DNA of 44,182 nucleotides from Candidatus Levybacteria bacterium CG_4_9_14_0_2_um_filter_35_21. GTDB taxonomy: Bacteria > Patescibacteriota > Microgenomatia > Levybacterales > UBA12049. Location: positions 1-44,182 of the forward strand of contig PFRF01000039.1 in the NCBI GenBank assembly GCA_002788395.1. The letters are read 5' to 3'. The translations under genes and the position numbers were made by a program. Positions 13,356-43,820 of the stretch are shown piece by piece. Within the stretch, counting starts at the first letter, position 1. The number at the start of each line of letters is the position of its first letter. The notes under the pieces are model-generated. The model saw nothing but the letters and a program-made list of their open reading frames with translations. It was not told the DNA's origin and searched no databases.

Positions 13356-13362
13356 GCTTAAA

Positions 13363-15042: not shown

Positions 15043-15323
15043 CGTACAGCTGCAATTGGAATTGCATTCGTTAAGGAATAGCCGGATTTTTGATTAACAA
15101 AACCCAATTTTTCTGCCCTGGAAGCTATATTGCTTAAAGAAGATTTGTCATAGACTTGCTCGCCAAGTATTGCATTTTCCGACTCGTAAAAGCTTAGATC
15201 ATTTGTTACCTTTGCCAATAACGAACCTGTTGTTGCCATACTATTCAGTAGAATTGTTCTCGTAAGCGATAATAAAACCGTTACTAAAATTAAAAATCCT
15301 ATTATTGCAAATGGTTTTTTCAT
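15039..15323 (-). CDS. FtsL/DivIC-like divisome protein
   Basis: A 94-residue bitopic protein with a transmembrane helix at about 5-22 and a following stretch suited to a coiled coil (LLAKVTNDLSFYESENAILG), then a septum-initiator-like tail ending SLSNIASRAEKLGFVNQ. This is the layout and size of FtsL and DivIC, which bind FtsQ and activate FtsWI. It sits between rsmH and ftsI, the standard ftsL position, and overlaps both neighbours by 4 bp. Sequence conservation in this family is low, so position carries much of the call. Confidence 0.75.
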   Translation of the reverse strand: MKKPFAIIGFLILVTVLLSLTRTILLNSMATTGSLLAKVTNDLSFYESENAILGEQVYDKSSLSNIASRAEKLGFVNQKSGYSLTNAIPIAAVR

Positions 15324-23746: not shown

Positions 23747-23750
23747 AATT

Positions 23751-24833: not shown

Positions 24834-24895
24834 GCTCCTTCGCTCCTTTTATTCTTCTTATTCATAATTCTCTGTTTCCTAAACTTAAAAAATTT

Positions 24896-24942
24896 AAGCT
24901 TCGGAAGCTTGACCCTTCCGTAGTTTTAACGAAGAAGGGTCA
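24896..24942. terminator. Bidirectional double-hairpin terminator
   Basis: A 9-bp stem (24910-24918 with 24934-24942) and a smaller palindrome AAGCTTCGGAAGCTT (24896-24910). On the minus strand the small hairpin is followed by AAATTTTTT and would stop transcripts of the GT4 gene ending at 24945. On the plus strand the large hairpin is followed by a T-rich run. Confidence 0.65.
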
Positions 24943-24944
24943 TT

Positions 24945-27141: not shown

Positions 27142-27153
27142 AAGCGCATTATA
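27142..27153 (-). promoter_or_regulatory. Promoter of the GT4 pair, leaderless layout
   Basis: TATAAT on the minus strand (27153-27148) ends 6 bases before the ATG at 27141. The rest of the 161-bp gap up to 27302 is AT-rich with no gene or array seen. Confidence 0.55.
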
Positions 27154-27302
27154 ACCAATAAAAACCTATTAGACAATAAACTAAAATATTCTTATTTTTT
27201 AAAAAACAACTACTTAACTTTTTTTAATTTTCTAAAAATTCTAAGCCTATATATTTAAATGAGGAATTATTTTGTTCGAGTAGAAATACTATACAATAAA
27301 AA

Positions 27303-28493: not shown

Positions 28494-29932
28494 TGTTTTT
28501 GTCTTAAGTTAAAGATAACATAATCCGGAGAATTTTTAATTATTTTATAGGTCTTCCCAATTCCTAAATCTTCTTTTGTAGGATTAACAAAAATTAAGTA
28601 TTCCGCTCCCATGCTAATCATTTCCGGAAGGGGTTTTTCAAAACTTGCCCATCCGGACCTATTTGTTTGATATAGAAATGATGTATCCCCGTTATAATTT
28701 GCAATAACTTTTGCATTTTTAGGAGTAATTTTATCGACCTCTATTCCTGCACTGACTATTGCCCGATTATTAATGTTAAAATAATCCTTAACCTGATTCC
28801 AGCTAAAGATATACATTAATATAAGCGGAATCAATAAACTAATTAAGACAAAATAATTCCTTTCTTTTTTAAAGTTTCGCAAAACTTGTCCTATCCCTAA
28901 ACCTAAAAAAATTACAATTGAGGGAATTATTAATATTTGGTAATAATCATGCTGGACATTTCCTCTGGCGATTACAAAAACATAAATAAGAGATGCAACA
29001 GCAAAGGATAAGAAAAATAAGAAGTCCTGTTTTTTAAGTTTTGGTATAAATCCTAATAAAAGAAAGAAGATTCCAAAGTAACCTAGGATTAACTTAGTTA
29101 GTCTTTCAAAAAATATCCATCTAAAAAATGCCGGTCTAAATCTTATATTTCCTTCGTTAAAAAGCCAATTGCTTGCAGGAATTCCTTCCGGGAATTGCAT
29201 TATCCACTTTCTCCAGAATATTAACGGAGCAATAGAAATAATAACCAGTAACCATAATTGCCATTTTTTAAAAGCTGAAAATTTAAATTTTTCAAATGCC
29301 AAATAAATTATTGGCAAGGTAAAAAACAACGCATACGGTTTTAATAGAAAAGAGCAAGAAACAAAAAACAACGACAAAATAAATCTTAAGTCGTAAATCT
29401 TAAGTCGTAAATCTTTTTTCATCCATAGTTGAAAAAAATAAATACTGCCTAGCGAGGCAGTAACCATAGTCTGGTCCGGAAGAATCGTTCTTCCATAAAA
29501 TACAGAAAAAGGAATGGTAGCATAAAAAAATGCCGCTATAAATCCTGCGAGACCATACCCTCTATTTTTAAGAATTAAATAAATAAAAACAGTAGCAAAA
29601 AGCGAAGAAATAATAGAAATAATTCTCCCCCATTCTTCTAAGGTGAAAATGCCAAAAAATTTAAACCCTCCTGCCTGAAGGGCATTATAAATAGGAAATT
29701 CAACAAATCTATAGCCTTTTGGATTATCTATTCCGGATGGAACATTAGACAAATCATGATATGTCGGATGAAGAAAATCAAAACCATTTTTAACAAAATT
29801 TCGGGAAACAGAAGATGTATCGGCCTGCCGCCAAGAATGCCAATCGGCAATTGGACCGTCAAACCTGTAAAGTCTCGTAACGAGTGCGCATAGAAGAATT
29901 GCCCCCAAGACTACAAATTCTAATTTTTTCAT
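28490..29932 (-). CDS. GT39-like membrane glycosyltransferase
   Basis: A polytopic protein of 480 residues resembling ArnT/PMT (GT-C fold), which moves a sugar from a polyprenyl phosphate to an acceptor outside the membrane. The first outer loop has DGPIADWHSWRQADTSSVSRNF, with the acidic and basic residues expected at the active site, and FVEFPIYNALQAGGFKFFG. About ten hydrophobic helices and a short C-terminal outer domain follow. A 28-bp 7-bp-period array lies in the loop KKDLRLKIYDLRF. Coupled by 4-bp overlaps to both neighbours. Donor and acceptor are unknown. Confidence 0.85.
   Translation of the reverse strand: MKKLEFVVLGAILLCALVTRLYRFDGPIADWHSWRQADTSSVSRNFVKNGFDFLHPTYHDLSNVPSGIDNPKGYRFVEFPIYNALQAGGFKFFGIFTLEEWGRIISIISSLFATVFIYLILKNRGYGLAGFIAAFFYATIPFSVFYGRTILPDQTMVTASLGSIYFFQLWMKKDLRLKIYDLRFILSLFFVSCSFLLKPYALFFTLPIIYLAFEKFKFSAFKKWQLWLLVIISIAPLIFWRKWIMQFPEGIPASNWLFNEGNIRFRPAFFRWIFFERLTKLILGYFGIFFLLLGFIPKLKKQDFLFFLSFAVASLIYVFVIARGNVQHDYYQILIIPSIVIFLGLGIGQVLRNFKKERNYFVLISLLIPLILMYIFSWNQVKDYFNINNRAIVSAGIEVDKITPKNAKVIANYNGDTSFLYQTNRSGWASFEKPLPEMISMGAEYLIFVNPTKEDLGIGKTYKIIKNSPDYVIFNLRQKQ
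29385..29412. repeat. 7-bp-period array in the GT39-like gene
   Basis: Four units alternating CTTAAGT and CGTAAAT, so also a perfect 14-bp tandem repeat. It encodes a charged cytoplasmic loop of the type DLRLKIYDLRF. Confidence 0.9.
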
Positions 29933-32900
29933 TTTATTTCCGCTATCATTCCATCTTTATCAAAGTAAAATACATAGTTATCTAAAACCTTAGCAGCTGT
30001 AAGTTCTTCTTTAATTCTTCTTGCTTCTTCTATATCTTTTAGCTTAACAATCTTTAAAGTTGAATCTCTGTAAACAAACCAAATCCCATCTTCAAGTCCA
30101 ACAGGAAAAATCCATGCCTGCCCCTGTTTAGTTGGAATGTTGGCAATATAAAAAGTGGAATTTTTCTTAACATCCTCATTATATATTCTTAAATAAGCAA
30201 GTGTTCTATTAGTTATTCTTCCGGATCTTGCCCATTCTTTTCTTTCCATTTGCTGTTCTCTCCAATAAAAAATTCCCAGTAAAAAAACTAATATTACAAT
30301 AATTAAAGCTTGATATTTCTTGTTCCTTAATTTCTTAGCACCAAAATTCGAAATCCAAATAATTAAAACACTTAGAGCAAATACGAAGCCTATTGACGAA
30401 AGGTAACCATATCTCTCGGCAATATTTCCAAGACCTAAGAAAGTAAGTAGGGATGTAAAAGAAAATATTATCGAATATATAAAAATTCTGGATAATTTTT
30501 CGTGGAGTAATTTTTTAAACCTCTCTTTATTTAGATAAACAACAATTGCGGCAACTGTTATGAAAAATAATAAAAATATTATGACTATTCCGACATTCTG
30601 TCTTAATACTAATCTGGAATAATCATAAACTGCAAAAAATCTCTCTCCAAATATATACACTCCCCAATATCCGGCAAAATTTCCAATTACATTTTGTGGA
30701 AGATGAACTAGGCTATACGAATAATCTCCGCCAATTGGAGCAGTGTTGCTAAGTTGTCTTACGAAATAATAAACAGGAATTAATAAAACAAACGGAAAAT
30801 ACGATAAATAAAATTCTTTGTCCTTTTTATTTTTTAAAAATAAATCAATCGTTATTATCAGAAACGGAAAAACAATTCCCATTTCATAAGATCCTAAAGC
30901 CAGTAAATAAAATAGCAGAGATAAAACATAAAAAATAAAAGATTTTGTTTTTCTAAACTTTACAATCAACATTAGTCCGTAAACTATAAAAAGGACGCAT
31001 AAAAGAGTTGATATTGTTGCAAACCAATAAAGAGTTTCACCCTGAATAGGTAAAACTAGAAATATAAAGCTTGTTATAAAAGCAATTAACTTATTCTTAA
31101 AAAGTTTAAAAGATATTATGTAAACTACCAGTCCGGTTAATAAATGAATCAATAAGGCGAATAAGTGATATCCGTAGGGCTGGAAAGAAAAAAGACTCCA
31201 CAAGAAGAAAACTATAGTTTTCGTAACCGGTCTATAGAAAAATCCGTCCGAATTAATAAAGTATCTCGGCAAATCCTGAATCGTTGTATTGGCAGCCCAT
31301 CTAAGCCAGGAAAAATCATCTCCCACAAAAAACGTCCCGATAGAAGGACCAAAAAAGACTAACGTAATTACAAAAAGATAAATTAAAATAAATACATGGG
31401 AAGTAAATATCTTTCCAAGACTGTCCCTGAGATTAAACTTATTTTTATATAAAAGAATTGTTCCCAATGCAATTCCCAGTAAAATCCAGAGTGTCTCGGC
31501 AACCTTGGATGCCTCAAACACATCAATTAAAGTTGCATTTAAGAAAAGTCCCAATACTCCTCCGGCAATACCCAATAAGTACCCTTTTGCAAGTTTAGAT
31601 TCAATTTTAGGCAAAGCACTTTTAAGAATCAATCCAAAAACAATAAATATAAATATAAATGAAAAAAATCCAAATGTTCCTGTTTCTCCAAGCATTCTAA
31701 GATAATCATTATCAGATGCAAGAGTAATCGTAGAAAAACCACTTCCAAAAAGCGGATTTTTTAAAAAAGCTTTCCAAGCATTCGGCCATTCCGCCTGAAA
31801 ACGAGTTGTTAAAGAAATATCGTAAACTAAGACTTGTTTAATTAAAAAAGTTCCGGAAACACTGGTTATTTCTACTCCTCCATTCTCCAATTTCAATCTT
31901 CTTGCTTCTTCTATGGATAATCCTTTACTAATTAACGCGCTATTCGTAGATATCTGCATTCCCGATTGAGGTAGTCCTATAAACCCGGTCCCTTCCGGAA
32001 GTCTCTGAGACGGAATATTTTCCAAGATAGATTTATCTTTTGCCAATCTACTTTTTAATTCATCCGATAAATCTGCCTGTCCGACAATTTGTCCTTGGTT
32101 ATTGGTTACAACAGATGCAAACCTTAAAGTCTGCATAAAACGTGATGCCATAGATCCACTAAACAAAAGCATTAAAAATACACTTAATAAAATAAATGGA
32201 AAAATATATTTTTTCTTATTTATAAAAGAAAGGGCAAAAGAAAGACCGCCCAGATAGGCAACAAAAGCGTTTCTGGAGGAAGTAAAAATTAAGATTGTTA
32301 TAGAAAGAATCGACAAAATAAATAAAAGTTTTTTCGTTATAGATTTTTTTAAACTGAAAAAAACTCCGATTAAAATTGGGATTACCAAAACAAGGTATGC
32401 AGATAAATCGTAGTGTCCTGCAAAAGTAGATGTTACGCGGGCATTAGAAGGCAAGCAAAGAGGAATTCCCTTTGCAAATTCTTCATTTCCTGTCTGAAAA
32501 GACGGAAAGCAAAAGGAAAATTTTTCAAAAAACTTCGGGAATGCTCCCCAAGCAGATAAATAAAAGTGCTGACCAACTCCATATAAAGAAAATCCTAAAA
32601 TTGTTGCCGAAAGAACGATTAAATAATCTTTTAAATCTTTTACGCTTTTAATTGTAGAAAACGCAATAAAAAAAAGAATCATGTATTCTATTCTTCTTAC
32701 GTAAGAAAGGATTGCTACTCTTGGAAAAAAATTTTCAAAACTAGGTCCAATGTAAATTAAGGAAAAAACTAAAGATATAAGTCCAACTCCCCAATAAATA
32801 AAAATTGACCAGGAGATAGAAGTATTTATTTTAGCCCTGCGGAAAATTAATTGAATAAACCAAATTATGGTTAATCCTAAGATAAAAAAATCCTCTAGTC

Positions 32901-33042
32901 TTATATATACCCAAGTATGAGCAATATTAATGCTTGGAAGTTTTGGATACAGAGCAATTAATCCTATTAAAAAACAAATTCCAAATTTTAAAATATTTTT
33001 ATTTAAGTATTTTAGAAACCTCAGCATACGTTTTAACACCAT
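29929..33042 (-). CDS. O-antigen ligase / GT-C glycosyltransferase fusion
   Basis: A 1037-residue polytopic protein with two enzyme-like halves. The first ~540 residues look like a WaaL/Wzy-type ligase or polymerase: many helices, SYVRRIEYMILFF, SNARVTSTFAGHYDLSAYL, TSSRNAFVAYLGG, a large outer loop of ~110 residues (~315-425), then NPLFGSGFSTITLASDNDYLRMLGETG. From ~565 a second module starts with an outer loop VGDDFSWLRWAAN and FYRPVTKT, like GT39/TMTC-type transferases, and ends with an outer domain. It overlaps the next gene by 4 bp. A second start (MLRFLKYL) lies at codon 6. The function of each half is by resemblance only. Confidence 0.8.
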   Translation of the reverse strand: MVLKRMLRFLKYLNKNILKFGICFLIGLIALYPKLPSINIAHTWVYIRLEDFFILGLTIIWFIQLIFRRAKINTSISWSIFIYWGVGLISLVFSLIYIGPSFENFFPRVAILSYVRRIEYMILFFIAFSTIKSVKDLKDYLIVLSATILGFSLYGVGQHFYLSAWGAFPKFFEKFSFCFPSFQTGNEEFAKGIPLCLPSNARVTSTFAGHYDLSAYLVLVIPILIGVFFSLKKSITKKLLFILSILSITILIFTSSRNAFVAYLGGLSFALSFINKKKYIFPFILLSVFLMLLFSGSMASRFMQTLRFASVVTNNQGQIVGQADLSDELKSRLAKDKSILENIPSQRLPEGTGFIGLPQSGMQISTNSALISKGLSIEEARRLKLENGGVEITSVSGTFLIKQVLVYDISLTTRFQAEWPNAWKAFLKNPLFGSGFSTITLASDNDYLRMLGETGTFGFFSFIFIFIVFGLILKSALPKIESKLAKGYLLGIAGGVLGLFLNATLIDVFEASKVAETLWILLGIALGTILLYKNKFNLRDSLGKIFTSHVFILIYLFVITLVFFGPSIGTFFVGDDFSWLRWAANTTIQDLPRYFINSDGFFYRPVTKTIVFFLWSLFSFQPYGYHLFALLIHLLTGLVVYIISFKLFKNKLIAFITSFIFLVLPIQGETLYWFATISTLLCVLFIVYGLMLIVKFRKTKSFIFYVLSLLFYLLALGSYEMGIVFPFLIITIDLFLKNKKDKEFYLSYFPFVLLIPVYYFVRQLSNTAPIGGDYSYSLVHLPQNVIGNFAGYWGVYIFGERFFAVYDYSRLVLRQNVGIVIIFLLFFITVAAIVVYLNKERFKKLLHEKLSRIFIYSIIFSFTSLLTFLGLGNIAERYGYLSSIGFVFALSVLIIWISNFGAKKLRNKKYQALIIVILVFLLGIFYWREQQMERKEWARSGRITNRTLAYLRIYNEDVKKNSTFYIANIPTKQGQAWIFPVGLEDGIWFVYRDSTLKIVKLKDIEEARRIKEELTAAKVLDNYVFYFDKDGMIAEIK

Positions 33043-33108
33043 AAACCATTTGTAATTTTTTCTATGGATTTAATATTATAAAATGTAGACATCTCGTTCA
33101 AGCAGAGC

Positions 33109-33663
33109 TTACCTAAACCAAGCTGCCCTTCCTAACTTATAACTTGGATTTTTTAGTTCTCTTTCTTTAATATGCTTTGCGGGCACACCTCCAACAATCG
33201 TAAAAGGCTCAACGTCCTTTGTTACTACTGCACCCGCTGCAACGATTGCGCCTTTTCCCACTTTTACGCCAGGCAAAATTACCGACCTCGGTCCAATAAA
33301 AACATAGTCTCCTATAATAACAGATTCAATTCTTGTTTTAAAATCCGGATCATGCACATCGTGCTCTGCATTATAAATCATAACCTCGCTTGCAATATCA
33401 ACATGATCTCCAATGGTTAAATTTCCTCTTCCGTCCAGAACTATTCTTTCACCTATTATCGTGTCTTTTCCTATGGAGATATTAGGAGGATAGTAAAATA
33501 TCGCGTTCATATGAATTACCGAACCTTTCCCAATTTTTACTCCACACAATCTATAGCAAAACCTTCTAAAATAATGCGAAGGAATATACCCAACAATTTT
33601 TAACTTAAAATTTATTAATTCCCAAAAAATTGTTTTTAATCTTCTAATAATTCTTCCAATCAT
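33109..33663 (-). CDS. Hexapeptide-repeat acyltransferase
   Basis: A 184-residue left-handed beta-helix O-acyltransferase of the WbbJ / maltose acetyltransferase type, probably acetylating a glycan sugar with acetyl-CoA. The hexapeptide pattern runs from about residue 45 to 160 ([38 protein letters not shown]). The catalytic His lies in [11 protein letters not shown], and the end shows [31 protein letters not shown]. The start codon is inside the first unit of a 7-bp-period array. Confidence 0.9.
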
Positions 33664-33717
33664 ACTTTATATTTTATACTTGATACCTCATACTTTATTC
33701 TTCATAATTTATACTTT
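33662..33717. repeat. 7-bp-period array, eight units
   Basis: Eight consecutive units of the type ATACTTT (first, fifth and eighth identical; others differ by 1-4 bases). It fills the whole space between the acyltransferase and the GT4 gene, contains the stop codon of the latter (33709-33711) and touches the start of the former. The clearest example of the family. Confidence 0.92.
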
Positions 33718-34893
33718 TTTTCCAGTTTCTTCCAAAACATTCAGTGTTTTGTGCGCCGTTTTTTCCCAAGAAAACTTTTTAACCTGCTCATATCCTTTTT
33801 TTATCATTTCTTCCCTCAATTCTGAATTCTGAATAATAGATTCTAAATTATTTTTTATGTCTTCGACATCTTCCGGGTTGCAATACAATGCGGCATCTCC
33901 TCCTGCCTCAGGAAGGCTCGAGACATTACTTGTAACAACCGGACATCCATGTTGCATTGCTTCCAAAATAGGTAAACCAAAACCTTCGTAAAGGCTTGGT
34001 AAACAAAAACATAAAGCATTTTTATAAAATGACTGTAGATCTTCGTCGGAAATGTTTTCTAAGAATTTTACACATTCTTTTACGCCAAATTTTTCAGGTG
34101 CTGCTAAAATTTCCTCATATTGCCATCCCTTTTTCCCCACAACTACCAAATCAAGGTCCTTTTTAAGGTCTATGTTTTCAGTTTTAAGTTTCGAAAATGC
34201 ATCCACAAGCCTTACGATATTCTTGCGTGGCTGAAGCGTCCCTACAAAAAGAATGTAATCTCCATTAATCCCAAACTTCTTTTTTAGTAGTTTTGAATTT
34301 TGCATTTTGAATTTTGAATTTGTTTCGGATTTAGTATTTTGAGTTTCGAATTTTAAACCTGGATAGATAACTTTTAGTTTGCTATCCGAAACATTGTACG
34401 CTTTAATTATATCATTCTTGCTGGACTCACTTATTGTAATAATTTTTTTAGCTTTCTTTATTGAGTATTTTCCCCAGACTTTTAACTGGTATAAGTCCTT
34501 TTTTTTAAAAAAATTAGGAAAGTATAGATAAGAAACATCTAAAATTGATATTACCGACGGTTCCAAAATATGTAGGGGAAGATAATGCGTCGGAGAGAAA
34601 AAAACATCAATTTTATTTTTGTAGGCTAATAGTTTTCTCGATAAACCAATCATTGTCCAAAGTTTTTTAGAAGTTACTACTTCGTATTTCCAGTTTTCAT
34701 TTTCTTTTGGTAAATCGGCAGAGGGTTTAACGGGTAAAAAAATTGTATATTTATTTTTCTTGTCTAAATTAAAAAGACTAAGCAACATTTGATAGCAAAA
34801 TTCACTGCTTCCGACTCTATTTGGAAGACCTGTTTTTTTGTTAAAGCCGAAACGAGGCACAACTGCCTCATAACCGTTTATTCCAATATTCAT
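33709..34893 (-). CDS. GT4 glycosyltransferase with three array inserts
   Basis: A 394-residue GT-B glycosyltransferase. N-terminal half: MNIGINGYEAVVPRFGFN, SILDVSYLYFPNFF, KKIITISESSKNDIIKAY. After LKVIYPGLKF a 21-residue insert rich in Lys, Asn, Ser and Thr is encoded by an array (34291-34353) before the donor domain resumes at ILFVGTLQPRKNIVRL. A second array (34161-34195) encodes SKLKTENIDLKKD before LVVVGKKGW, and a third (33819-33853) encodes IIQNSELREEM near the end. The donor site FCLPSLYEGFGLPILEAMQHGCPVVTS is intact, so the enzyme may still work. The stop codon lies in a fourth array. Confidence 0.88.
   Translation of the reverse strand: MNIGINGYEAVVPRFGFNKKTGLPNRVGSSEFCYQMLLSLFNLDKKNKYTIFLPVKPSADLPKENENWKYEVVTSKKLWTMIGLSRKLLAYKNKIDVFFSPTHYLPLHILEPSVISILDVSYLYFPNFFKKKDLYQLKVWGKYSIKKAKKIITISESSKNDIIKAYNVSDSKLKVIYPGLKFETQNTKSETNSKFKMQNSKLLKKKFGINGDYILFVGTLQPRKNIVRLVDAFSKLKTENIDLKKDLDLVVVGKKGWQYEEILAAPEKFGVKECVKFLENISDEDLQSFYKNALCFCLPSLYEGFGLPILEAMQHGCPVVTSNVSSLPEAGGDAALYCNPEDVEDIKNNLESIIQNSELREEMIKKGYEQVKKFSWEKTAHKTLNVLEETGKKV
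33819..33853. repeat. 7-bp-period array in the GT4 C-terminal region
   Basis: Five units of the type ATTCTGA, the first two perfect. It encodes a helix between the donor domain and the C-terminus of the glycosyltransferase. Confidence 0.85.
34161..34195. repeat. 7-bp-period array in the GT4 donor domain
   Basis: Five units of the type TTTTAAG / TTTTCAG. It encodes a charged insert between the first helix and second strand of the donor domain. Confidence 0.85.
34291..34353. repeat. 7-bp-period array in the GT4 inter-domain linker
   Basis: Nine units of the type TTTTGAA / TTTTGCA, 63 bp in all, which is exactly 21 codons. Because three units make seven codons, the protein shows a seven-residue near-repeat. 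The second half of the array is more degenerate. Confidence 0.9.
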
Positions 34894-34996
34894 ATTAAAA
34901 ATTTAAAATTTAAATTCTAAAACCTAAATCTTAGTTTTATATTTTAAGCTTTATGTTTATTTTTAAGTTTTCAGTTTTACGTTTTAAGTTTACTTA
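34894..34996. repeat. Long 7-bp-period array between two GT4 genes
   Basis: About 14 units in blocks (ATTTAAA type, then TTTTAAG / TTTTACG type) with one or two phase slips. It fills the 100-bp gap, begins at the base next to the ATG of one GT4 gene and includes the stop codon of the truncated GT4 gene. Confidence 0.8.
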
Positions 34997-35527
34997 AGTT
35001 CCGGGATATATTACAGATAGTCTATCTTTTCCTATATTAAGAATATTTTCCGCGTCTTCTGCGGTTGAATTAGAAATGCAAAAGATCTTGCTTGATTCTT
35101 TCTTAACCCATTTTAATTTTCTTTTTTGCGTGTTTACAATTTTTAAATCTGTTTCCTTTGGATATTTATATACTACTAAATCATAAAGAATAGTCGCTTT
35201 TTTTGCTTTTTTGGTTGGTGGCTCTGTCCAGTCCGAAGTAATAAACACATCAATATCTCCAATATACCATTCAATCGGAGCAATATGCAGCTTATTCCAA
35301 AGTATATCTAAAACCGCCGGCGGTATTTTGAATTGTCTAATTGTGACATTCGGGCTTGATTTGATTTTTAATATTTGATTTTTAATATTCTTTCTTAACG
35401 ATGAATAAAATAAAACATAATTATTTTTTTTATCATACTTAATTAGATTTTCAACAAGGTTTTTAAGAAAGATCGCTACTCCTGTCTTCTCGTACGCAAT
35501 TTGCGAAATATCTATTCCAATCTTCAT
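34994..35527 (-). pseudogene. GT4 glycosyltransferase truncated after the N-terminal domain
   Basis: A 177-residue open frame matching only the acceptor half of a GT4 enzyme: MKIGIDISQIAYEKTGVAIFLKNL, ATILYDLVVYKYPKET, KIFCISNSTAEDAENIL, and then RLSVIYPGT and stop. Complete relatives continue from this VIYPG point through a linker into the donor domain (~200 residues), which is absent. The break coincides with a long 7-bp-period array. A further array lies inside the frame (35354-35388, encoding KNIKNQILKIK). Without the donor domain it should not bind a sugar nucleotide; a residual binding role cannot be excluded. Confidence 0.8.
35354..35388. repeat. 7-bp-period array in the truncated GT4 gene
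   Basis: Five units with the alternating pair TTGATTT and TTAATAT repeated twice. It encodes a Lys/Ile-rich insert near residue 50. Confidence 0.85.
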
Positions 35528-35620
35528 CCTGTTAAATAAGATTTATGTTTAAATCTTAATTTTAATTTTTTGTACATATGTATAGTAAACCATAAAATTT
35601 AAAATTATTTAACAGGATGA
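35524..35620. repeat. 16-bp perfect inverted repeat in an intergenic region
   Basis: The 16 bases at 35524-35539 recur inverted at 35605-35620. Each copy contains an AACAGGATGA core, that is a ribosome site and start codon, reading outward on the two strands. The minus-strand copy starts the truncated GT4 gene; the plus-strand copy opens a frame that stops after eight codons. The DNA between is AT-rich. Confidence 0.7.
35538..35572. repeat. Possible 7-bp-period array
   Basis: Five degenerate units (AAGATTT, ATGTTTA, AATCTTA and so on) inside the inverted repeat. Weaker than the others because of the plain AT composition. Confidence 0.4.
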
Positions 35621-35633
35621 ATATTTTACTTTC

Positions 35634-35673
35634 GACTTTATAACCTTTTAACTCGTTAACACTTTTATAATTT
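35634..35673. repeat. 8-bp-period array over the end of the 3-dehydratase gene
   Basis: Five 8-base units of the type AACCTTTT / AACTCGTT. It includes the stop codon at 35648 and the last codons of the gene. It resembles the arrays that flank the toxin-antitoxin pair. Confidence 0.5.
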
Positions 35674-36823
35674 CTTTTAATTCCTTTTCCGTAAGCTCCG
35701 GATTATTCCCCAAATAAAATCCATTCTCGTAAATTAAGGCCGCGTTAGTATTTTCATTTTTAAATCCTTTTACGTATTTTATAAAAAACGGTTGTTTTGT
35801 AATGTCTCCTCCGACAATTGGCCTAATCTCTATTCTATTATTACACTTTTCTACCAATTCGTCTCTAATCTTTCTACTTCTGCAAATTACAGGAATTGCA
35901 AAATTAGAAATAAGATCAATGTGGCTAAAGCGGATCGGATAATATTTATCGCTCTTTTTATAAACTTCCGCAGCTATCCTTAGAAAATTCTGTTGCCTTT
36001 TTCTAACGATTTCGTCTAAAAATTCCAATTGAGTATTGCCGATAAAACCGTTTATCTCTGTCGGTCTAAAATTATACCCCAGATCATAAAAAGTATATCT
36101 GGAATAAAAAGTAGAGTTTACTTTATGGCTGTTTCTAATCTTTTCTTGCTTTTTTTTTCCCAAGTTTCTGTCCCAACCGTGCGCTCTAACTATTCTAAGC
36201 ATCGTAGAAAATTTTTCGTTATCTGTACAAACTGCACCACCTTCTATTGTGGACATATGGTGTCCGACATAAAAAGAAAAAGTAGAGGCAAATCCAAAAT
36301 TTCCCAACTTTTTGCCTTTATAAACTGTTCCTAAACCTTCGCAATTATCTTCTATTAAAATTATATTTTTCTCTTTGCAAATTTTTGAAATTTTATCTAT
36401 ATCATCACAAAAGCCCAAAAGATTTGTTAAAAACAATACATTTAGTTTATATTTTTTTAGGCTTTCCAGTAATTTTTTACTCGATACGTTAAGCGTGTTT
36501 ATTTCAACATCTATTGGCACGGGCAGCAGTCCAAGTTCTACCAGAGGCATTGTGTTTGTAGACCAAGTAAGGGCGGAAAAACCTATACGATCACCTTTTT
36601 TAATTTTTTTAAGGTTTAAAAGTGCTTGGATTAATGCCAAATTTGCAGAACTACCACTATTTACAAAAATGCAATTTTTTCTTCCTTGGTATTGTGCAAA
36701 GCCTGACTCAAATTTCTCGCATTCCTTTGAAAAACTTAAAATTTTCGCTTTAGTTATAAAATTAGCTAGTTTAATTGCGGTTTCTCTTTCTTTATAAAAA
36801 GTGGATTTGATTAACTTAATCAT
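35648..36823 (-). CDS. ColD/RfbH-type PLP-dependent sugar 3-dehydratase
   Basis: A DegT/DnrJ/EryC1 fold protein of 391 residues. The position of the PLP-binding lysine is taken by histidine: SFYVGHHMSTIEGG, with His188 five residues after Ser183. This is the mark of ColD and of E1/RfbH 3-dehydratases, which remove the C3 hydroxyl of a 4-keto-6-deoxy sugar, rather than of aminotransferases. PLP-site residues fit: NSGSSANL, LLGFCDDID, IEDNCEGLGT. The length matches ColD (388) better than the Fe-S E1 enzymes (~437). It suggests a 3,6-dideoxyhexose in the glycan. It overlaps the GT2 gene by 4 bp. Confidence 0.85.
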   Translation of the reverse strand: MIKLIKSTFYKERETAIKLANFITKAKILSFSKECEKFESGFAQYQGRKNCIFVNSGSSANLALIQALLNLKKIKKGDRIGFSALTWSTNTMPLVELGLLPVPIDVEINTLNVSSKKLLESLKKYKLNVLFLTNLLGFCDDIDKISKICKEKNIILIEDNCEGLGTVYKGKKLGNFGFASTFSFYVGHHMSTIEGGAVCTDNEKFSTMLRIVRAHGWDRNLGKKKQEKIRNSHKVNSTFYSRYTFYDLGYNFRPTEINGFIGNTQLEFLDEIVRKRQQNFLRIAAEVYKKSDKYYPIRFSHIDLISNFAIPVICRSRKIRDELVEKCNNRIEIRPIVGGDITKQPFFIKYVKGFKNENTNAALIYENGFYLGNNPELTEKELKEIIKVLTS

Positions 36824-37785
36824 CTTTCTCCTTTATACTTAAGTAGAGTATCTTCATCCGCAGTCTTTTTCGAAGATTCGCTGGAAACATTAAGTATAAG
36901 ATCTGCAATAAAACCGGTGAATAAAGCCTGAAAACCGGAGATTACAAAAAGAACTCCAAAAACAAGTAAAGGTCTATTTCCAATCTGCTCTCCTAAAAAA
37001 CGCAGCATTGTTAAGTAAATAAGAAAAACAAGACCAATAAAAATCAGCACAATGCCTACTAATCCAAAAAAATGCATTGGCCTAGACTTATATCGGGATA
37101 AAAAAAGCATGGTGAACATATCGGGAAATTCCTTAAAACTCTTGGAAAAACCGTATTTTGATTTACCGAATTTTCTTACTTCGTGGACAACAGATGCCTC
37201 AGCTATCTTAAAGCCATTTTGATACAAAAGCAGGGGAATAAAGCGCTGCATACCCCCATATAAATTTAATGATTTTGCCGCCGTACTGGTGTAAACTTTT
37301 AATCCGCAATTATAGTCATGCAACTTAAGTCCCCAGAAAAAACCTGATAGGAAATTAAATAGCTTAGAGGGAAGGTTAATAAATAGCTTTGAGTCTTTTC
37401 TGTGTTCTCTCCAACCCGAAACTAAATCGTATCCTTCTTTTAGTTTATTTAAAAGTTTTCCAATTTCTTCCGGTCGGTCTTGTAAATCCGCATCCAGAGT
37501 AACGATGTAATCGCCGGTTGCTTTTTGAAATCCAAAAGTTAAAGCCTCCGCTTTCCCCTGATTCCTCCTAAACGAAAATATTCTAATATTCCCTGTTCTT
37601 TGTTTGCTGTTTATTGCTTTTTGTCCTATGCTCTTGAGTATCTCAAGTGTCCCATCCGTAGATCCGTCATCCACAAAAATTATTTCGGGACTGTGGTCTA
37701 ATTTTAATAAATTAGGTACCAGCACTTTGTAAAAAGCTTCAAGACTTTCTTCCTCGTTAAAAGCAGGAATAACTACGGAAATCAT
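36820..37785 (-). CDS. GT2 polyprenyl-phosphate glycosyltransferase
   Basis: A dolichol-phosphate-mannose-synthase-like enzyme that loads polyprenyl phosphate with a sugar, the donor for GT39 proteins outside the membrane. It shows ISVVIPAFNEEESLEAF, IIFVDDGSTDGTLEIL, DYIVTLDADLQDRPEEI, GLKLHDYNCGLKVY and two C-terminal transmembrane helices (VGIVLIFIGLVFLIYLTML and a second). The start is taken at 37785: the open frame continues up to 37884, but those 33 codons read through an 8-bp-period array (residues like KLLSYKVLYKLSTLQLYK), and a TATTAT box lies 5 bases before this ATG. A 7-bp-period array sits at 37593-37634 (321 residues in all). Confidence 0.9.
   Translation of the reverse strand: MISVVIPAFNEEESLEAFYKVLVPNLLKLDHSPEIIFVDDGSTDGTLEILKSIGQKAINSKQRTGNIRIFSFRRNQGKAEALTFGFQKATGDYIVTLDADLQDRPEEIGKLLNKLKEGYDLVSGWREHRKDSKLFINLPSKLFNFLSGFFWGLKLHDYNCGLKVYTSTAAKSLNLYGGMQRFIPLLLYQNGFKIAEASVVHEVRKFGKSKYGFSKSFKEFPDMFTMLFLSRYKSRPMHFFGLVGIVLIFIGLVFLIYLTMLRFLGEQIGNRPLLVFGVLFVISGFQALFTGFIADLILNVSSESSKKTADEDTLLKYKGER
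37593..37634. repeat. 7-bp-period array in the GT2 gene
   Basis: Six units of the type CTGTTCT / TTGTTTG (42 bp, 14 codons). It encodes the insert around INSKQRTGN between two core strands of the GT-A fold. Confidence 0.8.
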
Positions 37786-37795
37786 ATTCGATAAT

Positions 37796-37866
37796 AGTTT
37801 GTAAAGTTGTAAAGTTGAAAGTTTGTAAAGTACTTTATAACTCAATAACTTTATGAACTTTATAAC
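37796..37866. repeat. 8-bp-period array upstream of the toxin-antitoxin pair
   Basis: About nine units of 7-9 bases (AGTTTGTA, AAGTTGTA, then AACTTTAT and AACTCAAT types). It lies between the GT2 start and the antitoxin promoter and is an inverted relative of 38506-38579. Confidence 0.75.
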
Positions 37867-37927
37867 TAAGGATGATTTTATCACGTATTAGCTTCGGAGT
37901 CTATTCTTGGTCATTTTAAATTGTCTA

Positions 37928-37962
37928 TTGACAAATTGTACATAGAGTTGTACATTATTTTT
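37928..37962 (+). promoter_or_regulatory. Toxin-antitoxin promoter and twin TGTACA operator
   Basis: TTGACA (37928-37933), a 17-bp spacer and TACATT (37951-37956) end 6 bases before the antitoxin ATG. Two TGTACA palindromes (37937-37942 and 37949-37954), 12 bp centre to centre, cover the spacer and -10 box. The E. coli yefM-yoeB operator has the same hexamer core and spacing, which points to autorepression by the antitoxin-toxin complex. Confidence 0.8.
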
Positions 37963-38217
37963 ATGAGCAATTTAATATCAATATCAGATGCGAGGACAAA
38001 TCTTCCAGACCTTGTTAATAAAGTAAGTAATAATATGGATAGGATAATTATTACTGTAAATGGAAAACCAAAAGCAACTCTTTTAAGCGCAGAGGAACTA
38101 GAATCACTTGAAGAAACTGCAGAAGTTCTTGCGATCCCAAATATCAAAAAAGATATATCAGAAAGCCGCAAGCAAATAAAAAGCGGAGAATTTGTTTCCC
38201 TCTCCGACTTAAAGTAA
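37963..38217 (+). CDS. Phd/YefM-family antitoxin
   Basis: A short DNA-binding antitoxin that represses its own operon and neutralises the toxin encoded next. The N-terminal fold is typical: MSNLISISDARTNLPDLVNKV, then RIIITVNGKPKATLLSAEELESLEET. The C-terminal ~30 residues (KKDISESRKQIKSGEFVSLSDL) are the toxin-binding tail. The frame is open from 37921, but that region is the promoter and operator; the ATG at 37963 gives 84 residues and matches the family start. It is 9 bp ahead of the toxin gene. Confidence 0.92.
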   Translation: MSNLISISDARTNLPDLVNKVSNNMDRIIITVNGKPKATLLSAEELESLEETAEVLAIPNIKKDISESRKQIKSGEFVSLSDLK

Positions 38218-38226
38218 CCGTTTTTT

Positions 38227-38475
38227 ATGAACGTTGTTCTCTCCGAAAATGCATTAAAACAATATAAAAACCTCCCGAAAGCTGCACAGATAAAAGTGAA
38301 GAAAAAACTTCTAGCATTAGAAAAAGACGTATATTTAGGCAAAAAACTAGTCGGAGAATTAAAAGATTTTCGGTCTGTTAGGGTTTGGCCATATAGGATT
38401 ATTTACGAAATTAATAAAAGCAAGACGAGAATAGAAATTCACGTAATTGCCCACAGGCAAGGTGCCTATAAATAG
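38227..38475 (+). CDS. RelE/ParE-superfamily toxin
   Basis: An 82-residue toxin with the compact RelE-like fold: VVLSENALKQYKNLPKAAQIKVKKKLLALE (two helices), then LKDFRSVRVWPYRIIYEIN, and IEIHVIAHRQGAYK at the end. The basic and aromatic residues in the last part (Arg, His, Arg, Tyr) fit a ribosome-dependent mRNA nuclease, though ParE-type gyrase poisons share the fold. The frame is intact. It follows the antitoxin by 9 bp and is followed by an inverted partner of the upstream array. Confidence 0.88.
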   Translation: MNVVLSENALKQYKNLPKAAQIKVKKKLLALEKDVYLGKKLVGELKDFRSVRVWPYRIIYEINKSKTRIEIHVIAHRQGAYK

Positions 38476-38505
38476 AGTTACTAAATATTAGTTAAAAGTT
38501 ATAAT

Positions 38506-38579
38506 GTTATTGAGTCGTCGAGTTATTGAGTTCATAAAGTTATTGTGTTCATAAAGTCTTACTTTACAACTTTATAACT
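38506..38579. repeat. 8-bp-period array downstream of the toxin gene
   Basis: Nine units: GTTATTGA (twice exactly), GTTCATAAA (twice exactly, 9 bases) and variants. Inverted relative of 37796-37866. It fills most of the 176-bp gap before the next gene. Confidence 0.85.
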
Positions 38580-38651
38580 TTTTATTTTATAAACTTCTTC
38601 TGTGTTGCGCAGAATAATGTGCCTAATGTATACTCTTGTTATATTTAAGTT

Positions 38652-40763
38652 GTGAAAAAAATAAAGCACATTCTTCTTAAAAACTGGCTGCTAGTTTTTT
38701 GTTTAATTATTATTGTTCTTCAGTTTTCGCAAATTGCATATTTTAAAAGAGCACTGCTTCTGGATAATTATGATTCATCTTATTGGAAGGATAGGTTCGA
38801 ACATTCACAATACGCTTTACCAGCGTCTGCGAGAACTATTGGAGACGATGGTTTATATAGTTATGCAGGATATCGCCTTACAGTAGGCAATGAGAGCATA
38901 GAAAAAACTGCTACCTTTAAACCCCCGGTTGGTATTTATTCGCTTGGATTTTCTACTGTAATATTTAATAATCCACTGATTACAACGTTTCTAATTAGCA
39001 TTGCAACAATAATTATTTTCTTTTTTCTTTCACGAAAATTATTAAACGGTAAAAAACCGGCAATTATAGTAACTACTCTCTTAGCTTTAGATCCCTTTAT
39101 CTTTTCTAATTTTACGATTGCGCTCTTAGATCTCCCTCAATTATTTTTTCTAATTCTCCATCTTCTTTTCTTTGTTTATTCAACAGAAAAGAAAAGGTTT
39201 GCACTGCTCTTTGCACTAATCAGCGGGTTAAGTCTTGGCTTTTTTACAGAAACAAAACTACCCCTACTCCTCCCCATAATCATTCTCCTCGAAACCCTCT
39301 ATCTAATTAAAAAACGTCTCTTTTTAAGTTTTATATTTTTAGTTTTAAGTTTTTGTTTCGGCGTTCTCGTTCCTTATTTACGCTACTTTGAATTAGGAAA
39401 CAGTTTGATAGATTATTTAAAACTACATAAGTATTTTCTGTCTTATTACGCTTCCGGAAAAAACCAGCTTTTTCCATTAGCCATTTGGCAATCTCTTTTT
39501 ATCGGCTACTTTCCCGACGTAGTTTCCGGCAAACTAAATAGAATTACCGATTGGTGGCCAATCCTCCCCTTGGCAACATTTTTCGGCTTAGCGGGAGGGA
39601 TAAAAGTATTTTTTCAGAAAAACAGTTTAATTTTTTTAAAAGGATTATCTATTTTAGTATTTGCGCTTTTAGCAATTTATACTCTAATACCTTCTTATGC
39701 CCGTTACCTTGTTATAGTCATTCCATTTTTATATATTCTTGCAGCAAGCTTATTTAAGATATATACACAGAATATTGTTTCTTGTTTATTGTTTATTGTC
39801 CTCTGTTTCTTTGGATTAGCTTACTCCTCATACTTACTTCTTCCTAATCCGGAAAATACACTTTGGAATTTGCGGTATAATTTTTCCCACCGGTATTTGC
39901 AAGATGTCTATCAAGAGCAACTTTCTTTAATAGACCACAAAACTTACAGCAGACAGGAGTTTAGGGCTATCGCGCAGAGCGCTTTAGAAAAAGCCACAAT
40001 TAAGAACGTTGATTTTAAGGAACTTTCCAGGAACATCCCTGTTTTTGGAGAAAAAGGATATGTTAAGTACCTTGTTACCTACACTACGCAAAACTTAGGA
40101 AAATTTTCGGAAACAAAAACAATAGACCTTGTTAAAGAACAGGATCAATGGAAAATAGTTTGGAACTGGAATATAGTTTTTAATTCCTTTAAACCGGACT
40201 ATACTTTTAGTACTAATCTCCTACCGGGAAAAAGAGGAACAATACAAGATAAGGAAAGAAATATTCTCGCAACAGATGCGCCTTCAATTCTAATAAGCAT
40301 TAATCCGGATAAAATAGACACAAAAAGAGAGCAAAAAATGCTTAAGCTGTTGCAGGACATTACCTCTAAACCGGGAGCCAATCTGCAAAATGCTTATTTG
40401 GAAAATCCACTGCCAAATACCTATATTCCCGTTGCAACACCTTTTATTGAATTAACTACTCAAGAGCTCGATCAATTAAATTCATTTCCAGGCCTTAAAA
40501 CCGAGCCCTATATTTCCCGTTTATACACTCAAAAGGAAAATTTGAACGAATTTACAATCGTAAATACTGTTTATCCGGAAAATAGCAGTAGGATCTACAG
40601 TAGCTCTAACTATCATGGCATTAGCGGCATTGAAAAAAAATATGATAAAGAACTCAGTGGCTACAATGGAGGCACATTACAAATGCTGGACGGCAACGGA
40701 AACATAATTAGAACACTCTTAAACCGGGAACCAAAAAACGGAGAAGATATCACACTTCCCTAG
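38652..40763 (+). CDS. GT39-like membrane domain fused to a PBP stub (MecA_N + dimer domain)
   Basis: A 703-residue protein with an unexpected layout. Residues 1 to ~400 are a polytopic GT39/ArnT-like module (IGDDGLYSYAGYRLTVG, FKPPVGIYSLGFS, ~10 helices). From ~405 an outer region looks like the N-terminal part of a class B penicillin-binding protein: an NTF2-like MecA_N domain (YVKYLVTYTT to WKIVWNWNIVF), the dimer-domain opening LLPGKRGTIQDKERNILAT (~525), and GISGIEKKYDKELSGYNGG near the end. It stops at NGEDITLP, where PBPs continue 'LTID' into the transpeptidase domain; no SxxK motif is present. The start is GTG, with TATACT 17 bases upstream. Two arrays lie in the membrane part. It ends 4 bp into a convergent gene. 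Confidence 0.78.
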   Translation: MKKIKHILLKNWLLVFCLIIIVLQFSQIAYFKRALLLDNYDSSYWKDRFEHSQYALPASARTIGDDGLYSYAGYRLTVGNESIEKTATFKPPVGIYSLGFSTVIFNNPLITTFLISIATIIIFFFLSRKLLNGKKPAIIVTTLLALDPFIFSNFTIALLDLPQLFFLILHLLFFVYSTEKKRFALLFALISGLSLGFFTETKLPLLLPIIILLETLYLIKKRLFLSFIFLVLSFCFGVLVPYLRYFELGNSLIDYLKLHKYFLSYYASGKNQLFPLAIWQSLFIGYFPDVVSGKLNRITDWWPILPLATFFGLAGGIKVFFQKNSLIFLKGLSILVFALLAIYTLIPSYARYLVIVIPFLYILAASLFKIYTQNIVSCLLFIVLCFFGLAYSSYLLLPNPENTLWNLRYNFSHRYLQDVYQEQLSLIDHKTYSRQEFRAIAQSALEKATIKNVDFKELSRNIPVFGEKGYVKYLVTYTTQNLGKFSETKTIDLVKEQDQWKIVWNWNIVFNSFKPDYTFSTNLLPGKRGTIQDKERNILATDAPSILISINPDKIDTKREQKMLKLLQDITSKPGANLQNAYLENPLPNTYIPVATPFIELTTQELDQLNSFPGLKTEPYISRLYTQKENLNEFTIVNTVYPENSSRIYSSSNYHGISGIEKKYDKELSGYNGGTLQMLDGNGNIIRTLLNREPKNGEDITLP
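39322..39356. repeat. 7-bp-period array in the GT39-PBP gene
   Basis: Five units of the type TTTTAAG / TTTTATA. It encodes a hydrophobic segment (LSFIFLVLSF), so here the array reads as part of a membrane helix. Confidence 0.8.
39775..39809. repeat. Second 7-bp-period array in the GT39-PBP gene
   Basis: Five units of the type TTGTTTA / TTGTTTC. It encodes IVSCLLFIVLCFF, the last membrane helix before the outer PBP-like region. Confidence 0.85.
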
Positions 40764-42271
40764 CGGAAAAATAAACCATTAACCAAATTTGGATCCGATG
40801 GAACCTTAATCTCCCCATCTGTCAAAATATATTTTTCCACTCTATACCCATTTGCGTAATTTATTACATTTTCTGGATTTTTATTTATTCTCACTCTATT
40901 CTTAATCCACCATTCTCTATTATTTTCTCCATTTATCGGAGGCGACATAATAATATTTACAACATGTTTTTTAGTATTTGGATATATTTTTATATTTGAA
41001 TACTCTTTATTCGCATATGCTAAAGCATATCTTGGACCATGTCCTTGTTCATCGGGGGTAAAAACGAAATAACCAAATTCCGAAGGTCCGTCTTTAAATA
41101 CCATCTTGGCAAGCTGATAATTAAATTTCCAAGATGCCGCACTGTTACCGGCATCAGATACAAAACCATCTACTTTATTTTTAGCCGGAATAAAATTAAA
41201 GAATAGCACGCAAAGGATAATGATTAAATAAATTTTCCTAGAAAAAACAAGATAACTAGAAGACAAGATTATTATTGCAACCGGAACAAAAGGGAAAACA
41301 TGAAATCCAAGTACATAGCCATTCAAATAAAATGATAATGGCCAATATGCTAAATAAAAATATCCATATAGCAAGTAAAATTCTCTATTCTTAAAATTTT
41401 TATCTTTATAAATTTTTACCATTAGATAAACAAACACTATAAATATTGCCAGTATTAATAGGTATGGAGCATAAGGAATTGGTAAAATATTATTTGTCAG
41501 TCCCTCAAGTCTATTCTGCAAAAATGAAGAAAAAGGTACTTTTTCACTCCCGGTTTCAGAGCCAATATGCATAAAAATAGATCTTATTTGCAAGAAATTA
41601 TGCCGAAGGTCAAAAAGAATATATGTTGATAAAGGAACAATTAAGGCAACTATTGAAAGTAAATGCTTAAATTTCTTTTTCTTGTAAAGGAAAAAAAGTA
41701 AATAAACTAAAGAAAAAATTAAAATTGGTCCTCCAAATGCAACTTCAAATTGAATAAGCAAACCAATTATAAAAAATGCCAATAGTAAAAACTTAATCTT
41801 TTCTAATTTTATATATTTATAAAAGAAGTAAAAGAACAACGGCGAAAAAAGAATAGCTCCAAATGGATTAAGGAGGGAGCTAGAATACTGGACGCTCATT
41901 ATTACCATTAAAAGCCCACTCAAAAGCCCTACGTACTCGTTAAAAAGTTTTTTACCAACATAATAAGTAGCAAAAACGGAACAGGTAATTAAAAATATCC
42001 AAAACCAACCTGTCGCCACTGGATTACCATGGCCAACAATAAAAGCCGGCAAGTTAATCCATGGCCATAGCGGACCGTGAAATAATCCATCAATACCTCC
42101 TGTGCGTGGACCAATTAAGGTTAATTTATGAGTATTTACAATATCTTGCAGAATTAGAAAATCCCTTGCAATATCCGTGTTATATCCTAAATCATTATGC
42201 AGAACAGGATAAGCACATAGGTAAAGACTAAATATAATAAGTAATAAAAGTAAGATTTTTAAAAATTTCAT
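40760..42271 (-). CDS. GT-C-like polytopic membrane protein, paralogue 1
   Basis: A 503-residue membrane protein, probably a GT39/PMT-like glycosyltransferase. The first outer loop contains NTDIARDFLILQDIV and GGIDGLFHGPLWPWINLPAF, conserved with the next gene; the Asp of ARD is a candidate catalytic residue. About ten helices follow and a ~120-residue outer tail with FGYFVFTPDEQGHGPRYALAYA and DPNLVNGLFFR at the end. It starts 4 bp after its paralogue ends and is convergent with the GT39-PBP gene, overlapping by 4 bp. The substrate is unknown. Confidence 0.75.
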   Translation of the reverse strand: MKFLKILLLLLIIFSLYLCAYPVLHNDLGYNTDIARDFLILQDIVNTHKLTLIGPRTGGIDGLFHGPLWPWINLPAFIVGHGNPVATGWFWIFLITCSVFATYYVGKKLFNEYVGLLSGLLMVIMSVQYSSSLLNPFGAILFSPLFFYFFYKYIKLEKIKFLLLAFFIIGLLIQFEVAFGGPILIFSLVYLLFFLYKKKKFKHLLSIVALIVPLSTYILFDLRHNFLQIRSIFMHIGSETGSEKVPFSSFLQNRLEGLTNNILPIPYAPYLLILAIFIVFVYLMVKIYKDKNFKNREFYLLYGYFYLAYWPLSFYLNGYVLGFHVFPFVPVAIIILSSSYLVFSRKIYLIIILCVLFFNFIPAKNKVDGFVSDAGNSAASWKFNYQLAKMVFKDGPSEFGYFVFTPDEQGHGPRYALAYANKEYSNIKIYPNTKKHVVNIIMSPPINGENNREWWIKNRVRINKNPENVINYANGYRVEKYILTDGEIKVPSDPNLVNGLFFR

Positions 42272-42275
42272 AAAA

Positions 42276-43820
42276 CTATCTAAATATTAATCCCTGATAA
42301 TAGTTTGGGTCAACATCGGGTTCTTTACCCTCGATTAATAATTTTTTTACAGTAATTCCCCCAAAGAAAGTTTTTGTTAAAATTACTTTTCCGTTAGTTC
42401 TAAGAGTATTCTTCTTCCAAAAATTATAAGCACCTTCGTCATTTGTCATATGGGGATATAAAATTAGGTAAGTTATTGTGTCCTTTTTATTTTCGAAAAT
42501 AATTGCAGGATTATTTTTACCATACCAAGACAATAAATAATCCATTCCATGGGTATAGGTTTCGGGAGTGTAAACAAAATACCCAAATCTCCCTTTCCTC
42601 GCATCTTTGTAGACCCAATCGGCAACTGCCTTTTGATTAAGATAAGATCCCGAGGAATTATTCCGAGTGTATGCGCGAAAATATTGACTTTGAACAAAAA
42701 CAGAAACGTTTAAAAAAGTAATTGCAAAAAATAATATTACTAAAATTTTTCCAAAAAAATTTTTCCAAACCGTAATTATGGCAAGATAAAAAGCAAGTAC
42801 GACTGGAACAAGAAGTCCTAGGACATATTCCGGCCAAATAGGGTAAGAGTAAAAGACAAAAAATACAAAGATTAAAACCGGAAATAAAAGTAAAAATAGA
42901 AACTCTTTTCTTCTCTCTTTTAACTGATTATCTTTTTTAGCTTTTAAAATTAAAAAAACGGCAAAAATAAAGATAGCTGCAAGTAATATACTCATAAGCG
43001 GAGTTTCCTTAAATAGAATGCTTTTGTATGTTCCCAATAAGCTATTAAAATGAGCAGGAATCCTATCCGTTAGCTCCAAATAACCTTTTTGCTTTTGTCC
43101 TCCCGTAAAAGAATTTAATATTGAGGTCGTCATTAAAAATTTGTGCCGGAGATCAAAGAGGATGAAAGTACAAAGAGATAAGATATAAGACGTAAGACTT
43201 AAGACAATGAGACGAAGGTTTTTTAGTCCCTTCCTATTTAAAAAGAAGACGATAATCATTGTGGGGATTAATACTAAAGAGAGGGCTGTTTCAAATTGAA
43301 GAGAAAGACCTGCAAAGAATGCGGCAAGAATATAAGCATTGGCACCACCCCTTAAAAATTTAATAAGGAAATAAAATAAACCCAGAAAAACAAGAGGCAC
43401 GACATTTACGCCTATCGTGTTGGAGACTGTGTTCCAGGTTATGGGTGAGATTGCTACTAGAACAGATATAATTAGGCCTCCTTTTTCCCCATATAGTTTT
43501 GAACCAACTAAAAAAGCCACTAAAACTGTTACGAGTTGCAGACCTATATAAAAATATACAAAAGAGAAAGGATTTCCTCCTCCAAACATATATACGGGCG
43601 CTAGCATGTAGAGCCACAGTGGACCATGAAAAAAACCACCCAAGCCACTATGAGTACCTATTAAAACAAGATTACGTGTTTCAACGATATCTTGTATTAA
43701 CAAATAATCTCTTGCTTGATCAAAGAGATAGAAAAAGTCCCCGGATAAAATCATCCTCGCCCCAAGAACAAAAGATAATAAAAGAATAAAAAACAGAAAT
43801 AAATATTTAAATCTTTTCAT
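42276..43820 (-). CDS. GT-C-like polytopic membrane protein, paralogue 2
   Basis: A 514-residue protein sharing the whole layout of the previous gene: FDQARDYLLIQDIV and SGLGGFFHGPLWLYMLAPVY in the first loop, ILFDLRH after the central helices, FGYFVYTPETYTHGMDYLLSWY in the outer tail, and DPNYYQGLIFR at the end. The two arose by tandem duplication. A 7-bp-period array (43177-43211) before ILFDLRH makes this copy about four residues longer than its partner at that point. The start lies 7 bases from another array. Confidence 0.75.
   Translation of the reverse strand: MKRFKYLFLFFILLLSFVLGARMILSGDFFYLFDQARDYLLIQDIVETRNLVLIGTHSGLGGFFHGPLWLYMLAPVYMFGGGNPFSFVYFYIGLQLVTVLVAFLVGSKLYGEKGGLIISVLVAISPITWNTVSNTIGVNVVPLVFLGLFYFLIKFLRGGANAYILAAFFAGLSLQFETALSLVLIPTMIIVFFLNRKGLKNLRLIVLSLTSYILSLCTFILFDLRHKFLMTTSILNSFTGGQKQKGYLELTDRIPAHFNSLLGTYKSILFKETPLMSILLAAIFIFAVFLILKAKKDNQLKERRKEFLFLLLFPVLIFVFFVFYSYPIWPEYVLGLLVPVVLAFYLAIITVWKNFFGKILVILFFAITFLNVSVFVQSQYFRAYTRNNSSGSYLNQKAVADWVYKDARKGRFGYFVYTPETYTHGMDYLLSWYGKNNPAIIFENKKDTITYLILYPHMTNDEGAYNFWKKNTLRTNGKVILTKTFFGGITVKKLLIEGKEPDVDPNYYQGLIFR
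43177..43211. repeat. 7-bp-period array in paralogue 2
   Basis: Five units of the type TATAAGA / CGTAAGA. It encodes a hydrophobic segment (LTSYILSLCTF). The matching place in the tandem paralogue has no array. Confidence 0.85.

Follow-up and report, generated by a model that had tools for sequence, protein, structure and literature searches.

Why should a sugar transferase of the membrane end in half of a penicillin-binding protein (PBP)? The question is posed by an open reading frame at positions 38652-40763 (+ strand) of a 44,182-nt stretch of DNA, hereafter the window, which is contig PFRF01000039.1, positions 1 to 44,182 of the forward strand, in assembly GCA_002788395.1 of Candidatus Levybacteria bacterium CG_4_9_14_0_2_um_filter_35_21 (GTDB lineage Bacteria; Patescibacteriota; Microgenomatia; Levybacterales; UBA12049). 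The frame runs from a GTG start to a TAG stop and encodes 703 aa, in which a GT-C glycosyltransferase is followed by a transmembrane helix, an NTF2-like MecA_N domain and a class B PBP pedestal, without a transpeptidase. A first-pass annotation had proposed that a polytopic sugar transferase is joined here to MecA_N and PBP dimer-like domains, and Pfam, NCBIfam, AlphaFold2 and Foldseek all agree with that architecture. We found no description of such a fusion in open-access papers. All parts of the fusion given below lie on the + strand.

Several lines of evidence place residues 1-370 (38652-39761) among the type A GT-C glycosyltransferases. Pfam PMT_2 matches residues 90-242 with 27.7 bits (cut-off 26.1), and PF02366 is found in some relatives only. 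Modelled alone, the module has an AlphaFold2 pLDDT of 89, and its best Foldseek match is ArnT (GT83; 5ezm; E 5.8e-5, TMq 0.59), followed by PglB, OST, ALG9, Pmt4 and PimE. ArnT, PglB, ALG9, Pmt4 and PimE share with the fusion the GT-C type A fold, the loop-1 aspartate and an extracytoplasmic C-terminal domain; they differ in sequence, as a profile of the fusion's GT-C module matched no chain in the PDB at E<=1. To our knowledge, none of these five enzymes has an NTF2-pedestal ectodomain. The earlier label "GT39-like" is loosely right, the module being of GT-C type A with ArnT (GT83) as the nearest solved structure.

The assignment to type A rests on the transmembrane fold together with the conserved aspartate of extracellular loop 1, where a DD motif (HSQ...S.R.IGDDGLY; D65-D66, 38844-38849) occupies the position of the essential aspartate that is common to all GT-C type A enzymes (PMC12041299). 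D65, the putative catalytic residue, is invariant in 22/22 members of the fusion family, and the DD motif is present in most of group A. Downstream, K90-P-P-V-G-I95 (38919-38936) is, in the alignment of family members, a variant of the family motif N.E.PPLGK, from which the window copy is missing E and K, two residues that are nearly invariant elsewhere in the family. An adjacent-cysteine motif, ECC, is present in 13/14 group A pedestals (L002, L003, L021, L004 and L031-L039), and the window copy has ENS in its place (residues 644-645). Because it lacks both the E and K of PPLGK and the CC pair, activity can be ascribed to the window copy with less certainty than to its relatives.

The ectodomain corresponds to the non-catalytic half of a MecA-type class B PBP. 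Its NTF2-like MecA_N domain spans residues 400-515 (39849-40196), where the Pfam MecA_N match (residues 427-515) reaches 16.7 bits and stays below the cut-off of 22; the same model scores above its cut-off in the relatives L038, L039, L043, L006, L041 and L044, and membership in the window copy is indicated by fold and profile matches to PBP2a and PBP3. The pedestal, or PBP_dimer domain, spans residues 518-703 (40203-40760) and is recognized by Pfam at residues 525-688 (72 bits, E 1.1e-19). Both motifs expected of class B PBPs are present: the N-terminal-module motif KRG.I.D..... at residues 527-541 (40230-40274), with R528 and G529 invariant in the 14 members of group A, and the pedestal motif G..G.E......L.G..GG at residues 654-674 (40611-40673), with G656, G659, E661, G673 and G674 likewise invariant. 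Residues 411-702 align by NCBIfam with the N-terminal half of PBP4(5) (profile 44-337 of 668), and in the relative L021 residues 367-691 are colinear with the PBP2a model (3-327) from the membrane anchor through the end of the pedestal. This latter alignment suggests that the extra transmembrane helix at residues 375-396 (39774-39839), which is missing from standalone relatives, is probably the PBP membrane anchor.

Structure prediction gives the same picture. The AlphaFold2 model of the whole fusion, built on the 22-member alignment, has a mean pLDDT of 87.5 and a pTM of 0.84. The first-pass annotation had staked its proposal on an NTF2 or PBP-dimer fold after residue 400, and NTF2 and pedestal elements are indeed modelled with confidence beyond that residue. 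Foldseek matches the fusion model to PBP2a, B. subtilis PBP3 and E. faecium PBP5 (E about 1e-14, about 318 columns). The rmsd of these long alignments is high, about 10 A, so that the domains match PBP2a but the NTF2-pedestal arrangement may differ. Searched against the PDB, the group A ectodomain profile matches B. subtilis PBP3 (E 2e-24) and PBP2a (E 1e-19), in each case over the full 300 residues. The fusion therefore has the anchor-NTF2-pedestal order and spacing of the MecA-type class B PBPs (PBP2a, B. subtilis PBP3, E. faecium PBP5 and PBP4(5)), with a sequence match that spans about 300 residues, and differs from them in having a polytopic glycosyltransferase in front and neither a transpeptidase nor an ordered SxxK/SxN/KTG set behind. 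Pfam gives no transpeptidase (PF00905) match in the frame at E<=1, the ectodomain has no K[ST]G motif, and the stop codon falls where PBPs enter their transpeptidase domain, as had been noticed from the sequence at the outset. Since the defining transpeptidase is absent, the protein is not a PBP; rather, its ectodomain is of a kind new among GT-C enzymes. A PHROGs search returned no match, and promoter and terminator scans did not rise above shuffled expectation.

The same fusion recurs in related genomes. A profile search of 374 genomes of the host's class recovered 21 full-length members, the window counted and genome G034 left out, or 22 with G034, from 8 families of this one class. They are 610-718 aa long (open frames of family members in this search, 611-734 aa); the C-terminus of all 22 coincides with the end of the pedestal or lies just beyond it, and a transpeptidase is absent throughout. 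Partial pieces occur in five further genomes of the class, at contig ends or broken by frameshifts. A search of 100 relatives gave three near-complete members at 34-41% identity and two divergent ones; none was seen outside the class among 380 genomes of the phylum at E<=1e-60, and a separate public collection holds two full-length members, one titled Candidatus Levyibacteriota. A fusion kept in so many species is not a sequencing error. A larger fusion that includes a transpeptidase was also sought and none was found. The sole long frame (L094 2653-5391, - strand, in genome G116; a frame of 922 aa, a protein of 912 aa) is a double fusion of a YfhO-like GT-C with a GT-C of this same family, has no PBP part, and, as assigned by sequence inspection, represents a second fusion kind of the same enzyme module.

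Conservation of the ectodomain differs across the family. In group A (f1, f9 and f10; 14 members) the RG.I and G..G.E motifs are retained and mean pairwise identity is 39% for the GT-C module, 33% for the NTF2 domain and 38% for the pedestal; a pedestal as conserved as the enzyme module argues against decay. In groups B and C (f5, f8, f23, f29 and f39; 8 members together) the pedestals are shortened and G..G.E is absent, and these divergent members still score 30-80 bits with the group A ectodomain profile. In group C the pedestal is less constrained than the GT-C module (31% vs 49%). The f30 members and L052 retain the GT-C module after loss of the ectodomain, and the PBP half is therefore dispensable in part of the family.

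A maximum-likelihood tree of the GT-C module groups the fusions in one clade (support 97/95), with 14 standalone GT-Cs outside it and four truncated members nested inside, and parsimony on this tree requires three changes, which a single gain followed by two losses would supply. The standalone relatives end just before helix 375-396, whereas the nested truncated members retain it, those of f30 together with a stub to about the NTF2 start. Because the standalone relatives stop before this last transmembrane helix, the addition is most readily interpreted as everything that precedes the transpeptidase in a MecA-type PBP: anchor, NTF2 domain and pedestal. The helix would then be homologous to the PBP anchor. 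MecA_N was screened for in 233 genomes of the class, where 12/12 matches lie inside fusion loci, and in the 380 genomes of the phylum, where none passes. No resident MecA-type PBP that might have been the donor was thus found in either sample. With the pedestal profile, MecA-type PBPs reach 36-43 bits and the resident class B PBPs reach 17 and 10. Given that these scores favor MecA-type PBPs, of which neither sample yielded one, the sequences point to a donor of the PBP half outside the phylum. It is possible that the transpeptidase was lost anciently, at or before the founding fusion.

The window brings together on one 44-kb contig a division and cell-wall cluster at 1263-16668 (MraZ, MraW, FtsI, Mur ligases, MurA, MraY, FtsW, MurG and FtsA) and a large surface-glycan gene set at 23081-40763 (a GDP-mannose pyrophosphorylase-like protein, a sugar transferase, GT4s, PMT_2s, an O-antigen ligase-like protein, DegT and a GT2). 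In the first of these, FtsW lies at 4070-5137 and FtsI at 13363-15042; in the second, the gene for the GDP-mannose pyrophosphorylase-like protein lies at 23751-24833. The GT2 (36820-37884, - strand; Glycos_transf_2) matches the NCBIfam ArnC and PgfS models with 157 and 131 bits, both below the equivalog cut-offs, and is a probable polyprenyl-phosphate-sugar synthase that could supply the donor. Between it and the fusion lies a pair of genes for a Phd/YefM-like antitoxin and a ParE-like toxin (37921-38475, + strand). On the far side of the fusion, 40760-43820 (- strand) encodes two adjoining PMT_2-like proteins of 503 and 514 aa, which fall below the Pfam cut-off, match no NCBIfam model and have similar C-terminal ends (FGYFVYTPE/FGYFVFTPD and ...GLFFR/GLIFR).

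No flippase was matched among the window genes scanned. A Polysacc_synt_3 flippase lies near the fusion in 7 related loci of f1, f8, f23, f29 and f39, whose loci are in glycan clusters with GT2, GT4 and YfhO neighbors; five of them have a nearby GT4 of one conserved cluster, directly adjoining in four. Glycan clusters are absent around the nine f10 loci, which have neither a synthase-like GT2 nor a flippase. Next to the fusion gene in f10 genomes (L067 6458-7506 and the corresponding places in the others), two small conserved proteins of about 172 and 139 aa recur that neither Pfam nor NCBIfam recognizes.

We propose, with a probability of about 0.62, that the fusion works outside the cytoplasm as a lipid-phosphate-sugar transferase and that its PBP half binds the acceptor or a partner in wall synthesis. 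The outward-facing GT-C module would move a sugar onto a surface acceptor from a polyprenyl-phosphate carrier, and the probable source of this donor is an ArnC/PgfS-like synthase, for instance the one at 36820-37884. The ectodomain would stem from a MecA-type class B PBP, of which an ancestor of the class acquired the anchor/NTF2/pedestal half, minus the transpeptidase, in a single fusion; it would probably bind or position, either holding the acceptor (nascent wall or a wall-linked glycan) or docking on a wall-synthesis partner. Catalytic activity, donor and acceptor are inferences, and so is what precisely the PBP half does, for which we rely on its likeness to the C-terminal binding modules of other GT-C enzymes: GT136, EmbC and AftD bind the acceptor through such modules (PMC11127046). 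The proposal also has a parallel in the three-component extracytoplasmic glycosylation systems (synthase, flippase and a GT-C such as GT136). A GT-C with a C-terminal module is common to both, and candidate parts of such a system lie near the fusion, a synthase-like GT2 in the window and a flippase beside several relatives; in place of a carbohydrate-binding module, the fusion's C-terminal module is the PBP half. The ectodomain is most economically explained as a binding module. Points against the proposal as a whole are the missing PPLGK residues and CC pair of the window copy, the position of the nine f10 members outside glycan clusters, the high rmsd of the long PBP alignments and the loss of the ectodomain from some family members.

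A special case, in which the binding partner is the wall synthase, deserves separate consideration. Class B PBP pedestals are scaffolds that position the transpeptidase and switch on SEDS polymerases. Here the pedestal, freed of a transpeptidase and placed in cis with a non-SEDS glycosyltransferase, might dock on, or compete for, complexes of SEDS proteins and class B PBPs in the host (FtsW/RodA with FtsI/PBP2), or the activators of these complexes. Decoration with sugar, as a second transfer of a lipid-linked glycan, would then be timed and placed with peptidoglycan synthesis. The host genome encodes two SEDS proteins along with two class-B-size and three class-A-size PBPs, and the two core pedestal motifs are invariant in group A. 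In known systems SEDS proteins are activated through contact of the pedestal with ECL4 (PMC8078798), and MreC binds the pedestal of PBP2 (PMC10257715). The suggestion, made in the first-pass annotation, that glycan transfer is coupled to the wall synthase is for this reason plausible by analogy with the class B PBP pedestal's activation of SEDS polymerases, and the data fit equally well with an ectodomain that binds an acceptor glycan. However, the shortened pedestals of groups B and C have lost the G..G.E motif, which argues against a SEDS contact throughout the family, and the pedestal is nearer to low-affinity MecA-type PBPs than to the resident class B PBPs by the profile scores given above. 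We therefore hold docking on the SEDS machinery as a tentative idea, possible rather than probable.

It is also conceivable that the PBP half binds nothing itself and acts purely as a stalk or spacer by which the active site of the GT-C module is held or capped. The motif loss in groups B and C and the missing ectodomain of the f30 members and L052 are in keeping with this, as is a GT-C enzyme whose C-terminal module is dispensable under the conditions tested (PMC11127046). The invariant PBP motifs and the mean pedestal identity of group A nonetheless exceed what a spacer needs, and we consider a purely structural role unlikely.

The earlier suspicion of a frameshift, or of a recent remnant left by a longer GT-C-PBP protein with a transpeptidase, fares far worse. 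The exact coincidence of the end of the frame with the point where a transpeptidase would start is what such decay could leave behind, but the same domain boundary closes the protein in all 22 species, the group A pedestal is conserved, and no member of the family has a transpeptidase. Moreover, the convergent PMT_2-like gene at 40760-42271 (- strand; ORF list, Pfam) overlaps the fusion's stop codon by 4 bp, so that there is no room for a transpeptidase downstream. The five transpeptidases of the host genome are all in open reading frames of normal length (576-807 aa), and hence there is no orphan catalytic half. The conserved C-termini and the lack of such an orphan rule out frameshift or truncation, and a decaying remnant is highly improbable. 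An assembly chimera or chance domain match, which the incomplete assembly of 60 contigs might invite, is negligible in the face of strong sequence and fold matches. The fusion's recurrence across 8 families, in independent genomes, and again in a separate collection rules the chimera out.

In tiny, uncultured bacteria about whose envelopes little is understood, a PBP pedestal has long been kept without a transpeptidase and on a sugar transferase to which it is unrelated. The fusion is thus a natural test of what the pedestal and the NTF2 domain do by themselves, and it may directly link the addition of surface glycans to wall synthesis. If docking on the SEDS machinery were true, the PBP pedestal would be a portable regulator of glycosyltransferases.
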